Part shown: positions 3,340 to 21,608 of the stretch, piece by piece
Position numbering within the stretch: the first letter of the stretch is position 1
Layout: each line of letters starts with the position of its first letter
Origin: a virus
Strand: one strand, 5' to 3'
Length of the DNA: 22,185 nucleotides
Virus record (IMG/VR): IMGVR_UViG_3300046007_006311
Span: 1 to 22,185 of that record
Position numbers and translations under genes: made by a program
The notes under the pieces: model-generated
The model's input: the letters and a program-made list of their open reading frames with translations, nothing else
The model's database searches: none
What the model was told of the DNA's origin: nothing

Positions 3340-3783
3340 ATGCCTGACAACGTAAACATCACGCCTGGTTCCGGGGCGGTTATTGCTTCTGATGAGGTGG
3401 CTGGCGCTCAGTATCAGCGCGTGAAGGTGACGTGGGGTGCTGATGGCACCGCCACGGATGCAAGCACTTCTAATCCGCTGCCGGTGCAGACGATCAGCGC
3501 GAACACCACCATTGCTGATGGCCGCAAGGTTGTGACGACCGCCGGCACTCGCGTGACGCTTGCCTCGAGCACAGCGTGTAAGCAAGTGGCGATCACCGCT
3601 GAGACTGACAACACCGGCATCGTGGTTGTTGGTGGCTCAACGGTTGTCGCAACGCTCGCTACCCGTCAAGGCGTCCCGCTAAATCCCGGTGACACCATCA
3701 CGCTTGACATTGACAACCTTGCCGACATCAACCTTGATTCAACGGTTAGCGGTGACGGCGTCACGTTCCTTTACCTGGCGTAG
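3340..3783 (+). CDS. Small virion-type beta protein, function unknown
   Basis: This 147-residue protein begins directly after the adaptor stop. The N-terminus has the pattern GAVIASDEVAGAQYQRVKV, then NPLPVQT, which recurs in many uncharacterised phage structural proteins. The remainder is Thr/Val/Ala-rich and alternates like a beta sandwich (TTAGTRVTLASST, QVAITAETDN, GDTITLDIDNLADINLDS). No signal peptide, membrane segment or catalytic motif is visible. The stop overlaps the GTG of the glycine-rich gene by one base, so these two are probably co-translated and could form one accessory structure at the neck or on the capsid (inference). A decoration or fibre-base protein would also fit. Confidence 0.55.
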   Translation: MPDNVNITPGSGAVIASDEVAGAQYQRVKVTWGADGTATDASTSNPLPVQTISANTTIADGRKVVTTAGTRVTLASSTACKQVAITAETDNTGIVVVGGSTVVATLATRQGVPLNPGDTITLDIDNLADINLDSTVSGDGVTFLYLA

Positions 3784-4679
3784 TGAAGGTCACCACCAAG
3801 AAGGCTGGCGCTAGGCAGATCGGCTCGGGTTTCGCAACGCGCCGAGCTCGCGCTTACGCAACTGGTGGGACGGTAACAACCAGCGGCGGGTATCGCATCC
3901 ACAGCTTTACGAGCACGGGCAGTAACACGTTGACGGTCACGGCGCCTGGTGATGTTGAGTACCTGCTGGTTGCTGGTGGTGGCGGCGGCGGCGGTGTGGG
4001 TGGTGATGGTGCTGGTGGTGGCGGCGGTGGCGGAGGTGTCCTTCAGGATCTTTCGGCTGGAGCCCCGGTCTTGATTCAGAATTACACGTTGAGCGTCGGT
4101 GCAGCTGGTACCGCTGGCACAGGTGTTTCCGCTGGCGGTAACGGCGGTAACACGACCGGGTTTGGCTTTACAGCTACCGGCGGTGGTGGCGGCGGTGGCG
4201 CTGGAACCGTGGGTTCTAACGGCGGTTCAGGCGGCGGTGGTGGCACAGGCGGCGCGGTTATCGCTTACGCGCCTGGCACCGGCAGCAGCGGCCAAGGGAA
4301 CAATGGCGGCAATTCTTTCGCTAACGCATCAGGTGACGGCTACCGCGCTGCTGGCGGCGGCGGCGGCGCTTCCGCTGTGGGCGCCAATGCAGCGCAAGGA
4401 ACCGGCGGCAACGGTGGGGCGGGCCTAGCGTCAACAATCACAGGTGCCTCACAGACCTACGGGTCAGGTGGTGGCGGCGGCAGTGACACTGGCGCTTTCA
4501 GGGTCAGCTCGGGAACCGGCGGCACAAACGCTGGATCGGGAACCACCGGCACCGGAGGCGCAGCGACCGCAAACTTTGGCGGGGGCGGCGGGGGCGGTAC
4601 AGGTCAGGGACCAACAATTGCTTTCACTGACGGTGGCGCGGGAGGTAGCGGGGTGGCAATCGTGAGGTACAAGCTGTGA
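3783..4679 (+). CDS. Glycine-rich adhesin-like virion protein
   Basis: This 298-residue protein starts at a GTG. It has a basic N-terminus (1-26), a small beta domain (about 27-64, GGYRIHSFTSTGSNTLTVT) and then long poly-glycine stretches from about residue 65 to 290. Its C-terminal strand, GVAIVRYKL, is the usual ending of the glycine-rich domain found in phage and bacterial appendage proteins. Poly-glycine helix packing is known from the receptor-binding adhesin gp38 of T4-like phages, so host or surface binding is plausible. It sits inside the neck module, between adaptor and the next neck gene, not with the tail-tip genes. It may therefore form a neck or capsid fibre. The repetitive GGC/GGT runs make the reading sensitive to assembly errors, but the frame stays open from end to end. 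Confidence 0.7.
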   Translation: MKVTTKKAGARQIGSGFATRRARAYATGGTVTTSGGYRIHSFTSTGSNTLTVTAPGDVEYLLVAGGGGGGGVGGDGAGGGGGGGGVLQDLSAGAPVLIQNYTLSVGAAGTAGTGVSAGGNGGNTTGFGFTATGGGGGGGAGTVGSNGGSGGGGGTGGAVIAYAPGTGSSGQGNNGGNSFANASGDGYRAAGGGGGASAVGANAAQGTGGNGGAGLASTITGASQTYGSGGGGGSDTGAFRVSSGTGGTNAGSGTTGTGGAATANFGGGGGGGTGQGPTIAFTDGGAGGSGVAIVRYKL

Positions 4680-19035: not shown

Positions 19036-19539
19036 ATGGGCGCTGGGACACTGACCGGCTGGGACTACTGCAAGGTTCATGGATGCCAGGAGGAGGGCGA
19101 CGGGATTGAGTACGCCAACCCGCGGCTAAAGCATCTGTGTCCGCGGTGTAATCGGCCGAGGGCAACGGGTAACGAGAAGCGCGATCTGATTCGTGAGCGG
19201 TTCCTGACCCTTGAGGCCAGTCAGTTTGTGCGGGGGATAAGTCCGGCGGAACGCAAGCCGGTAAGTGACGCCTTGAGCTCGTATGCGGAGCGTCGCGCGG
19301 GTGGTGATGCGCCGTGGCGAGATTTCCGCAGCCGCGATTTCAGCATTGAGGCGCTCGAGGAGATCGCTGACCTTCGGATGTACTGCCTGGCGGAAATGTT
19401 GAAGTGGGAGAAGCGCGCGGATGCCGGCCGCGATGATGAGGACGCGGACGCTGAGCTGATGCACCTTCGTCGCTTGTTGGCCGCGACGGTTGAGGCGTTC
19501 AGCGCGATTAGCGCCTACCGGCAGGTGCGCGATTCTTAG
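19036..19539 (+). CDS. Cys-rich (zinc-knuckle-like) protein of unknown function
   Basis: The start at ATG 19036 is preferred because GAGGGGG (19023-19029) sits six bases upstream; an in-frame ATG at 19021 overlaps that site. The 167-residue product carries a small zinc-binding-like cluster near the N-terminus: C and H in YCKVHGC, then LCPRCNRPR. The rest is helical and charged (EKRDLIRERFLTLEAS, SIEALEEIADLRMY, DAELMHLRRLLAATVEAFS). No catalytic motif is seen. Its C-terminal coding end overlaps the start region of the RusA-like gene by about 50 bases, a sign of tight coupling. A DNA-binding or adaptor role is plausible, given the neighbouring resolvase. The family is unknown to me. Confidence 0.7.
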   Translation: MGAGTLTGWDYCKVHGCQEEGDGIEYANPRLKHLCPRCNRPRATGNEKRDLIRERFLTLEASQFVRGISPAERKPVSDALSSYAERRAGGDAPWRDFRSRDFSIEALEEIADLRMYCLAEMLKWEKRADAGRDDEDADAELMHLRRLLAATVEAFSAISAYRQVRDS

Positions 19540-19957
19540 GCAGCAGCAGTACGTCATTGAAGGCAAGCCGGTTCCAAAGGGCTCCCGTGTTCAAGGTTTC
19601 AGTGCCAAGACGGGGCGTTCGTATAGCCGGGAGGCAAACAAGCACGTCGGCCCGTGGATGAAGTCAGCGCACGGTCAGGTTCTCGATCAGCATGAAGGCG
19701 GGCAGCTCAGAGCGCCTTATCGCGTGACCTGCACGTTCTTCTTCGAGCCCCCGCAGCAGCGTTCGTGGCCGCGGTCCGGTGACTGTGAGAAGTACCTGCG
19801 CGCCGTCGCTGATGTCCTCCAGGGCGGCGGCACCTACGGAACCGGCGTGATTTCCGATGATCGCCACATCATTGAGATCAGCGGCAAGAAGGTTTACGCC
19901 GAGGACGGCACGCCGGCCAGGACCGTGGTGCTGGTCGAGGAAGTCAACGGGATTTAA
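19490..19957 (+). CDS. RusA-type Holliday junction resolvase
   Basis: The frame opens at TTG 19490, the only usual start codon before the conserved part; this overlaps the preceding gene by 50 bases and a non-standard later start is possible. The conserved region begins at YVIEGKPVPKGSR. The RusA signature is present: FFFEPPQQRSWPRSGDCEKYLRAVADVLQ interrupted only by small differences, followed by GVISDDRHI. The acidic residues of SGDCEK, VADVL and SDD match the metal-binding aspartates of RusA. The enzyme cuts Holliday junctions and helps resolve recombination intermediates before packaging. The C-terminal strand, ARTVVLVEEV, is usual. It is the last gene before the terminator hairpins. Confidence 0.83.
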   Translation: MRRSARLAPTGRCAILRQQQYVIEGKPVPKGSRVQGFSAKTGRSYSREANKHVGPWMKSAHGQVLDQHEGGQLRAPYRVTCTFFFEPPQQRSWPRSGDCEKYLRAVADVLQGGGTYGTGVISDDRHIIEISGKKVYAEDGTPARTVVLVEEVNGI

Positions 19958-19999
19958 GTTCGTCCGCGCGTCGAGCGCGCCCCCGCTCCGCTGCGGGCG

Positions 20000-20038
20000 G
20001 CCCGCCCCGGTGTTTCATCCCTGCACCGTTGGGCGGGC
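20000..20038 (+). other. GC-rich hairpin, possible first terminator
   Basis: GCCCGCCC CGGTG (20000-20012) pairs with CACCG (20024-20028) and GGGCGGGC (20031-20038), leaving an 11-base loop and a two-base bulge. The following sequence is only moderately T-rich (AGTTCTTCTTC), so it is less clearly a terminator than the next hairpin. Confidence 0.5.
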
Positions 20039-20069
20039 AGTTCTTCTTCACCCCGGGACGGGTGACATT

Positions 20070-20103
20070 GACCCCCAATGCCTTCGGGCGTTGGGGGTCT
20101 TTT
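20070..20103 (+). terminator. Rho-independent terminator
   Basis: A 13-base-pair stem with one G-T wobble, GACCCCCAATGCC against GGCGTTGGGGGTC, is closed by the stable TTCG tetraloop and followed by TTTT. It ends the late/middle operon that finishes with the RusA-like gene. Because the stem has few A's upstream, it is most efficient for + strand transcripts. Confidence 0.92.
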
Positions 20104-20267
20104 CACGTTTCAGGCCGCGTGATCAAGCGATTTGGCAAAAAAGATTTGGCAGCGTGTTTTCCCTGCAAAGCAGCACAAAATCAAGCTTTCCTGCGGGATT
20201 CTACGCATTTTACCTACGTGTTTCGCGTGCTAGAAGACCGGCGGCAATACCGCGAAGGGAGAACACG

Positions 20268-20506
20268 ATGACCAGCAACTCCGGGGGGGGGGGGGCTTGA
20301 AGCCTCGCCCCAAAGTTTCAGCAGGTGACATCGCCATCATGCGCGAGCTGGCCGGCGCGATGCTTACCTACTCACGCCGATGCGAAGGACGCCTCGGCCT
20401 TGACCTAGCCGCCTGGTCGGCGCGGATCAGCCTCCGGGCAACGAGTCTGGATCAGGAAGGACAACAGGGTCGTCAGCGTGCTCGAGGCGCGCCAGCACCT
20501 CGTTAA
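20268..20506 (+). pseudogene. Small gene interrupted by a 13-G run (frameshifted as written)
   Basis: A well-placed ribosome site (GAAGGGAG, 20254-20261) precedes ATG 20268. As written, this encodes only MTSNSGGGGA before TGA at 20298-20300. One extra G (or two fewer) in the 20283-20295 G run would join it to the frame read on to 20506, giving a product of about 79 residues that continues LKPRPKVSAGDIAIMREL, then MLTYSRRCEGRLGLDLAAW. That continuation could also be started at TTG 20297, but no ribosome site is visible there. The last 80 bases overlap the 3' end of the minus-strand repressor gene. No family is recognised. It may be phase-variable, decayed, or an artefact of sequencing through poly-G. 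Confidence 0.5.
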
Positions 20507-20729
20507 GCGACTCATTTAGCTGCTCGTCGGTGAAGCCTTGGATCAGCCAGCCGATCGGGACGTTGGTGACCTGAGCGAGAGCGGTTAGGGCTTCGTTGGT
20601 GATTGGTGATTCGCCGGCTTCGCGTCGACGAATGGTTTCTGCGCTGACCTGAAGGCGGTTTGCCAGCTGCTCGCGTGACAGTCCGGCCATGACGCGAGCT
20701 CCTTTGATGCGTCGTGGTACGTCGCTCAC
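20427..20729 (-). CDS. XRE-family transcriptional repressor
   Basis: The best start is GTG at 20729 (MSDVPRRIKGARVMAGLSRE); the frame extends further upstream to 20882 but that part is Cys/His-rich, unlike a repressor, and covers the divergent promoter zone. The 100-residue product has an XRE helix-turn-helix in residues about 6-62: RIKGARVMAGLSREQLANRL, then VSAETIRRREAGESPI and ALTALAQVTNVPIGWLIQG. A short acidic C-terminus (LNESLNEVLARLEHADDPV) may mediate dimer contacts. There is no LexA-like peptidase domain, so it is not a self-cleaving cI-type. It is divergent from another XRE gene and converges with the poly-G gene. It probably controls its own and the divergent promoter. Confidence 0.82.
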   Translation of the reverse strand: MSDVPRRIKGARVMAGLSREQLANRLQVSAETIRRREAGESPITNEALTALAQVTNVPIGWLIQGFTDEQLNESLNEVLARLEHADDPVVLPDPDSLPGG

Positions 20730-20742
20730 TGGCGGCACGATA

Positions 20743-20849
20743 CACGCGGACTCAAGCCAAAAAACCGCGTGATTGTGGTGCTTTAGCACGGATTGTGTAG
20801 TTCCGTCCGGTTCTGTGGTATCTTTCCAACTGTGGAAACACGGACGGAA
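20743..20849. promoter_or_regulatory. Divergent control region with inverted and direct repeats
   Basis: Several symmetric elements lie between the two XRE genes. CACGCGG (20743-20749) is opposed by CCGCGTG (20765-20771). GTGCT TT AGCAC (20778-20789) is a perfect palindrome flanked by direct repeats GATTGTG (20771-20777 and 20791-20797) exactly 20 bases apart. TTCCGTCCG (20801-20809) is opposed by CGGACGGAA (20841-20849), and inside it TTTCCA/TGGAAA (20823-20828 and 20833-20838). TATCTT (20819-20824) is a good -10 for the plus-strand XRE gene; no strong -35 is seen. The expected transcript start falls at the GTG 20832, suggesting a leaderless mRNA. Confidence 0.55.
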
Positions 20850-21062
20850 ACAAACCACCGCAATCTGACACTTCTCAGGCATCGGCTTGACGCCGGCCTA
20901 AGCCAAAGGCAGATCGCGGAAGCAATCGGCGTCAGCACCCGCGTCTACCAGTACGCCGAGCAAGGCGGCACACCGCAGCCCCGTCACGCCGTGAAGTTCG
21001 CTGACTACTACGGGCTCCCGGTCACCGAGCTGTTCTACCCCGACCTGGAGATCGCGGCATGA
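20832..21062 (+). CDS. XRE-family regulator (Cro/antirepressor-like position)
   Basis: The 76-residue product starts at GTG 20832 (METRTETNHRNL); a longer frame from 20793 would include promoter sequence. An HTH spans residues about 12-65: LLRHRLDAGLSQRQIAEAIG, then VSTRVYQYAEQGGTPQP and RHAVKFADYYGLPVTELFYPD. The C-terminal sequence FYPDLE is frequent in phage XRE regulators. There is no ribosome site, but a TATCTT -10 lies seven bases upstream of the start, so translation is probably leaderless, as for some phage repressors and many actinobacterial genes. It opens the rightward early operon and its stop overlaps the next ATG (ATGA). It could be Cro-like or a second activator. Confidence 0.82.
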   Translation: METRTETNHRNLTLLRHRLDAGLSQRQIAEAIGVSTRVYQYAEQGGTPQPRHAVKFADYYGLPVTELFYPDLEIAA

Positions 21063-21277
21063 GCACCGTCGCATTCACCCACCGCCTTCAGGCACTGATG
21101 AAGATGAACGGCGCCGAGCGCCTTTCGCGTCTTTGTAACGAGCTTCCCGCGATGGTCCCGCAGTCCCTGACCCCGGACCAGCTCGCGCTCCTCGATCACC
21201 TGCACCGCGAGATCCACCTTCTCGCAGTCCGTGAACGCGACGACGCAAACGCACTGATGGGAGAGACAACCCAATGA
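21059..21277 (+). CDS. Small early-operon protein, unknown
   Basis: This 72-residue protein starts at the ATG overlapping the XRE stop and ends overlapping the next ATG. It is helical throughout: FTHRLQALMKMNGAERLSRL, then LTPDQLALLDHLHREIHLLAV, and a short polar tail. No motif or family is recognised. Coupled translation on both sides places it in the early operon governed by the divergent control region. A small DNA- or protein-binding factor is possible. Confidence 0.7.
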   Translation: MSTVAFTHRLQALMKMNGAERLSRLCNELPAMVPQSLTPDQLALLDHLHREIHLLAVRERDDANALMGETTQ

Positions 21278-21441
21278 CCGTCAAGACCGTTGACAAGAAC
21301 GCCGCGCGGTTCCTTGCCTACGCCGACCTGCTCCGCGACGAAGCACGCCAGGTCGACAACGAGCACGACCGCCACCGGCTCCTCGAGCAGGCCAACGCTT
21401 TCCAGCAGGAAGCCAACCGAATCACAGGAGGCACCAAGTGA
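21274..21441 (+). CDS. 55-residue helical protein, unknown
   Basis: It starts at ATG 21274, inside an ATGA overlap with the previous stop, and ends TGA 21439-21441, overlapping the next GTG. The product is a charged amphipathic helix (KNAARFLAYADLLRDEARQ, then HDRHRLLEQANAFQQEANR) with a short GGTK end. It may form a coiled-coil dimer. The overlaps on both sides and NNC/NNG codon bias support it being real, despite its small size. No function can be assigned. Confidence 0.7.
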   Translation: MTVKTVDKNAARFLAYADLLRDEARQVDNEHDRHRLLEQANAFQQEANRITGGTK

Positions 21442-21608
21442 TTGAGGTACTCGGAACCGGCGCCCTCACGGTGCTGGTCATGGGCGGCTGGGTCGCAATC
21501 GTCGTGATTGCGGTGCTGGTCGGCAAAACCGTCATCGACCTTGTCGGTGACCGCGTCTACGGACGCATGGACAACAAGAAGCGCCCCGGGCGAACCCGAG
21601 GCGCATGA
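21438..21608 (+). CDS. Small single-pass membrane protein, unknown
   Basis: It starts at GTG 21438 (GTGA overlap), with AGGAGG at 21426-21431 as a strong ribosome site. The 56-residue product has one long hydrophobic helix (residues about 7-32, GALTVLVMGGWVAIVVIAVL) and a basic C-terminus (YGRMDNKKRPGRTRG), so the tail would face the cytoplasm. Small early membrane proteins of phages often interfere with host processes or superinfection, but nothing specific can be shown here. It ends by overlapping an in-frame ATG at 21605 of the next gene. Confidence 0.7.
   Translation: MIEVLGTGALTVLVMGGWVAIVVIAVLVGKTVIDLVGDRVYGRMDNKKRPGRTRGA

Follow-up and report, generated by a model that had tools for sequence, protein, structure and literature searches.

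The window analyzed here, a virus record of 22,185 bases from a tailed phage (62.5% G+C), carries a run of 13 G (positions 20283 to 20295, + strand) shortly after the well-placed start codon ATG 20268, beside the gene for an immunity repressor. The length of this run sets the reading frame that is entered from ATG 20268. The explanation we tentatively prefer is that a slippage-prone or mis-sized G tract lies in a small orphan open reading frame (ORF) or leader, where it likely serves no selected switch.

The window encodes an HK97-type capsid protein (Pfam Phage_capsid), together with a tape measure protein, a RusA-like resolvase, and a divergent pair of HTH proteins (Pfam, PHROGs). The pair consists of a repressor on the − strand (20427 to 20729; HTH_3, E = 7.6e-12; phrog_2328 repressor, E = 3.1e-13; probable start, GTG 20729) and a Cro-like protein on the + strand (20832 to 21062; HTH_3, E = 5.5e-10; phrog_8), which together form a complete immunity switch. 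On the opposite side of the G tract, a terminator-like stem-loop followed by TTTT (20070 to 20099, + strand; 13-bp stem; −27.9 kcal/mol, z = −7.7; repeat search and folding) probably serves the upstream RusA-side operon as its intrinsic terminator. Because this hairpin would cut off the RusA side, an ORF starting at 20268 would need its own promoter, located between 20106 and 20254. A simple scan of positions 19900 to 21100 detected no sigma-70 promoter, a result that says little for a high-GC phage, and Rfam gave no match within the window. Short near-identical DNA matches to the hairpin were observed in Mycobacterium phage Reindeer (tRNA-Glu region) and in several Microbacterium phages.

Read 5′ to 3′, the locus consists of a ribosome-binding site (GAAGGGAG, 20254 to 20261, + strand), the 6 bases AACACG, ATG 20268, ACCAGCAACTCC, the 13 G, and CTTGAAG. 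Pairing of the site with the anti-Shine-Dalgarno (anti-SD) sequence has a duplex energy of −8.4 kcal/mol, a value that just 12 of the window's 226 ATGs equal or beat and that lies within the spread seen for genes of this phage. The run exceeds every other homopolymer in the window (the next G run has 5 bases, and runs of the other bases have at most 7), and its length goes beyond chance: the expected number of G runs of at least 13 is 0.008 from base composition, 0.0013 under an order 1 model, and 0.00005 to 0.0001 under orders 2 to 3. Like the tracts of contingency loci, it is long enough to be hypermutable and would lie in coding or promoter DNA.

As the sequence stands, ATG 20268 opens a ten-codon ORF (MTSNSGGGGA; 20268 to 20300, + strand) that ends at the stop codon TGA (20298 to 20300). 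When the length of the tract was varied in silico, 13 G gave 10 codons, 14 gave 79, and 12 gave 19; either 14 or 11 G would join ATG 20268 to a frame ending at 20506. The sequence and the duplex energy thus agree with the preliminary description, which had reported 13 G after an ATG with a good ribosome site, and the arithmetic it gave for the stop after ten codons and for the 79-codon frame is correct. Its description of a gene out of frame by one base was sound as frame arithmetic but presupposed that translation starts at ATG 20268, whereas starts at TTG 20297 or ATG 20339 are possible. Provided that ATG 20268 is the start, tract length decides read-through, as in a contingency locus.

The frame that a change in tract length would reach (20297 to 20506, + strand) contains 69 codons from TTG 20297 and 55 from ATG 20339. 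It is convergent with the repressor gene and overlaps its 3′ end on the other strand by 80 bp (repressor stop at 20427), which confirms the overlap noted previously. Openness of this frame was not clearly beyond chance, since at least 69 open codons were reached by wrong frames on the + strand in 10% of cases, by antisense frames in 21%, and by locally simulated DNA in 10 to 19%. The 43 codons ahead of the repressor overlap scored 0.04 bits per codon, outscoring the other + strand frames and 99.5% of open wrong-frame windows on the + strand. However, this part scored under 95% of true-gene windows, its score was also reached by a third of the open antisense windows, and the codon score of the full frame was under that of every true-gene window. 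The codon signal therefore lies between coding and noncoding and is marginal, and it is possible that the downstream frame is a gene. The structure predicted from the single sequence of the 69-residue frame was one long helix (pTM 0.48), which we set aside as uninformative.

These measurements also bear on whether the locus contains a gene at all. A chance ribosome site and a chance open frame could lie beside an incidental G run in noncoding DNA: the probability of such an open frame is 10 to 20%, about 5% of ATGs have an equally good site, and the full-frame codon score is below all true-gene windows. Nevertheless, the joint probability of the site, the openness, and a codon score better than that of wrong frames is below each of these alone, and we regard the absence of a gene as rather unlikely. 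Two of the same observations fit a real small gene and so count against our preferred explanation of an orphan ORF or leader: the ribosome site of ATG 20268 equals that of real genes in quality and is correctly spaced, and the codons ahead of the overlap score better than nearly all open wrong-frame windows on their strand.

Searches for relatives of the downstream frame found none in IMG/VR viral contigs, 84,980 GTDB genomes, or 50,697 GenBank phage records, and no family in PHROGs or Pfam. Scans for close relatives with five window queries (the downstream frame, the repressor, the upstream gene, RusA, and the early gene at 21605) detected only one, contig IMGVR_UViG_3300042452_000354 (L004), which is 97.7% identical over 4,696 bp with 0 gaps and stops at window position 19251, 1 kb short of the tract. 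The early gene at 21605 is common to more distant relatives, none of which matched the tract region; two of these contain runs of 8 to 10 G, inside other genes and away from the tract locus. A genome scan with this early gene returned nothing, and the flank pattern, allowing any tract length, was found in no other contig. The missing conservation of the downstream protein leans against a contingency interpretation, although as evidence it is weak because no relative of the locus was found in these collections at all. In contig L005, a + strand ORF (3691 to 4002, 103 amino acids) likewise overlaps the 3′ end of a repressor gene (3929 to 4438, − strand); it shares the arrangement but no similarity with the window frame and belongs to no known family, and was not used as support.

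Expression of the downstream frame may also proceed independently of tract length, as it would if translation started at TTG 20297 or ATG 20339. The ten-codon ORF could act as a leader element that is coupled to TTG 20297 by termination-reinitiation, or the protein could start at ATG 20339, with no frame change needed. In support of such a leader, the stop TGA overlaps TTG 20297 as TTGA, and comparable overlaps are present between other genes in the window (ATGA at 21059 and 21274, GTGA at 21438). The G run itself pairs with the anti-SD sequence at −10.9 kcal/mol, stronger than for most window genes, and is a possible extended ribosome site; AGGTGA lies upstream of ATG 20339, which would start a 55-residue version. 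However, TTG is a weak start codon, the G run may lie too near it to function as a normal ribosome site, and the protein is without relatives; we consider a leader of this kind unlikely. Fusion of the ten-codon start to the downstream frame by programmed −1 ribosomal frameshifting, or by transcriptional slippage, is very improbable. The run contains the slippery sequence G_GGG_GGG, and a −1 shift enters exactly the frame open to 20506. An SD-like element lies upstream of the run but serves ATG 20268; the region from 20230 to 20340 folds no better than shuffled sequences (z = −0.78), giving no sign of a stimulatory structure, and no conservation backs a programmed event.

Homopolymer calls at such lengths are unreliable in short-read data. 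It is therefore conceivable, at a fairly low probability, that the tract at its true length leaves the frame open and the small gene unbroken, with the base count changed by short-read sequencing or assembly. Plain poly-G runs at the ends of IMG/VR contigs (93 bases in L062, 56 in L064, and 47 in L097) look like sequencing artifacts kept in the assemblies, and they agree with such a miscall. Homopolymer error is studied in PMC11140927. In contrast, the window assembly is otherwise free of indels over the 4,696 bp aligned to its near relative, the tract sits 1.9 kb from the contig end amid continuous regulatory and coding sequence, and the downstream protein has no relatives that would prove a gene there.

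A scan of IMG/VR for 12 or more G after a ribosome site and ATG yielded 105 stretches, some of them contig-end artifacts and others convincing genes; the window tract clusters with none of the scanned tracts. Among the genes are C5-cytosine methyltransferases of phage contigs (PF00145, E = 4e-29; phrog_363, E = 9e-64), in which 12 to 15 G lie inside motif IV (FPCQDIS-AAG-GGGG-IDGERSG; L085, 1652 to 2479; L101, 5415 to 6309; L105, L057, L107, L023, L048, L082, L075, L060, and L099). L085 and L105 have 15 G and an open frame, whereas L101 has 13 G and a broken frame, and their 250 downstream bases are identical. Judged from sequence, these three are strong candidates for phage-encoded phase-variable methyltransferases. 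In related phage C5-methyltransferases (L030, L033, L042, L056, L070, L076, and L090), a G tract in motif I (ALFAGGGGGILAGHLLGW) lies near the start codon. Possible tail or structural genes carry 12 to 14 G in the first ten codons (L049, 8384 to 10225, − strand; L084, 2649 to 3837; L072; L052): that of L049 is open as is (614 amino acids) and has no Pfam or PHROG match, and the other three are open only at another tract length.

Other contigs show differing tract lengths as well. An apparently noncoding but conserved element, CTACGCAACATAATTCA(A)-G14-17-TAGTTTAGGTAAG, occurs with differing tract lengths in nine viral contigs (L010, L027, L032, L040, L067, L087, L093, L103, and L110), including L032 with G15 and L087 with G14 between identical flanks. 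L029 and L071 likewise have identical flanks around G14 and G13, and in this case the direct repeat TTGCTTC borders the tract on both sides. Two other pairs were rejected as length differences: L091 and L106 (13 versus 14 G) differ by a C-to-G substitution at the tract edge, and L033 and L056 (15 versus 12) by an A-to-G substitution next to the tract. Tract-length differences between assemblies with identical flanks thus occur in IMG/VR, where assembled contigs cannot separate natural from sequencing slippage.

Our preferred explanation is consistent with the differences of 1 to 2 bases seen at G tracts of similar size between identically flanked contigs. According to this explanation, the 13-G tract, whether real or slightly wrong in length, would form part of the 5′ end of a short ORF or leader specific to this lineage. 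It would thereby sit in the regulatory gap that, in this high-GC tailed phage, extends from the RusA-side terminator to the repressor gene. The tract would gain or lose G through replication slippage and through sequencing or assembly slippage, and any single assembly would consequently show one of several lengths. A selected switching role seems unlikely because no conservation of the downstream frame is apparent, its coding signal is only marginal, and translation could enter it at TTG 20297 or ATG 20339 regardless of tract length.

If such a role nevertheless exists, the locus would be a phase-variable (contingency) gene in which slippage of the G tract toggles the 79-residue phage protein, perhaps affecting the neighboring repressor. 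Poly-G contingency loci typically have a tract of such length and 5′ position, one high-GC actinomycete provides an established case of phase variation through a G tract (pglX of Streptomyces coelicolor), and other phage contigs hold poly-G genes with length differences. However, the absence of a conserved protein, openness near chance, and the alternative starts downstream of the tract make this reading improbable. Quite improbable is its specific form beside the lysogeny switch, in which a hypermutable tract would stochastically switch the small protein and produce, within a phage population, a heritable mix of lysis-lysogeny behaviors; the same low estimate covers, jointly, placement of the tract in a rightward transcript antisense to the 3′ end of the repressor gene.

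Poly-G switching is already well known, including in a high-GC actinomycete, and what interest the window locus holds comes mainly from its place next to the repressor. A true switch there would provide a temperate phage with a device for mutational bet-hedging; at present, the locus is no more than a candidate of a familiar type, a G tract near a start codon ahead of an orphan frame. The window locus resembles the poly-G contingency loci of Campylobacter and Neisseria in having a long G tract whose length decides the frame. Those loci, however, are conserved surface or modification genes with observed ON/OFF mixtures (for example, PMC8437040 and PMC4085013), whereas the window frame has no relative in the collections searched. 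In pglX, part of the phage-defense Pgl system, phase variation occurs by a change from 8 to 7 G (PMC4365076). There too the length of a G tract sets the reading frame against a high-GC background, and length changes alter phenotype (PMC4365076), but pglX is a host gene for a large conserved methyltransferase with measured switching, and the window frame is small, orphan, and of phage origin.

Searches of the open-license literature turned up no account of poly-G switching within phage genes themselves. Here the C5-methyltransferase genes from the scan (L085, L101, L105, L057, L023, L056, and others) offer the comparison, as they too lie on phage contigs and have G tracts of the same length and a length-dependent frame. 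They differ from the window locus in having a clear Pfam DNA_methylase assignment and a tract inside a conserved glycine-rich motif, where the window tract follows the fifth codon, and in that a length difference with identical flanks has been seen for the methyltransferases. Other phage contigs thus hold stronger poly-G candidates than the window locus, these genes among them. Judging from the wider scan, phage genes with long G tracts seem to form a testable class, for which the methyltransferase cases would be a better place to look than the window locus.
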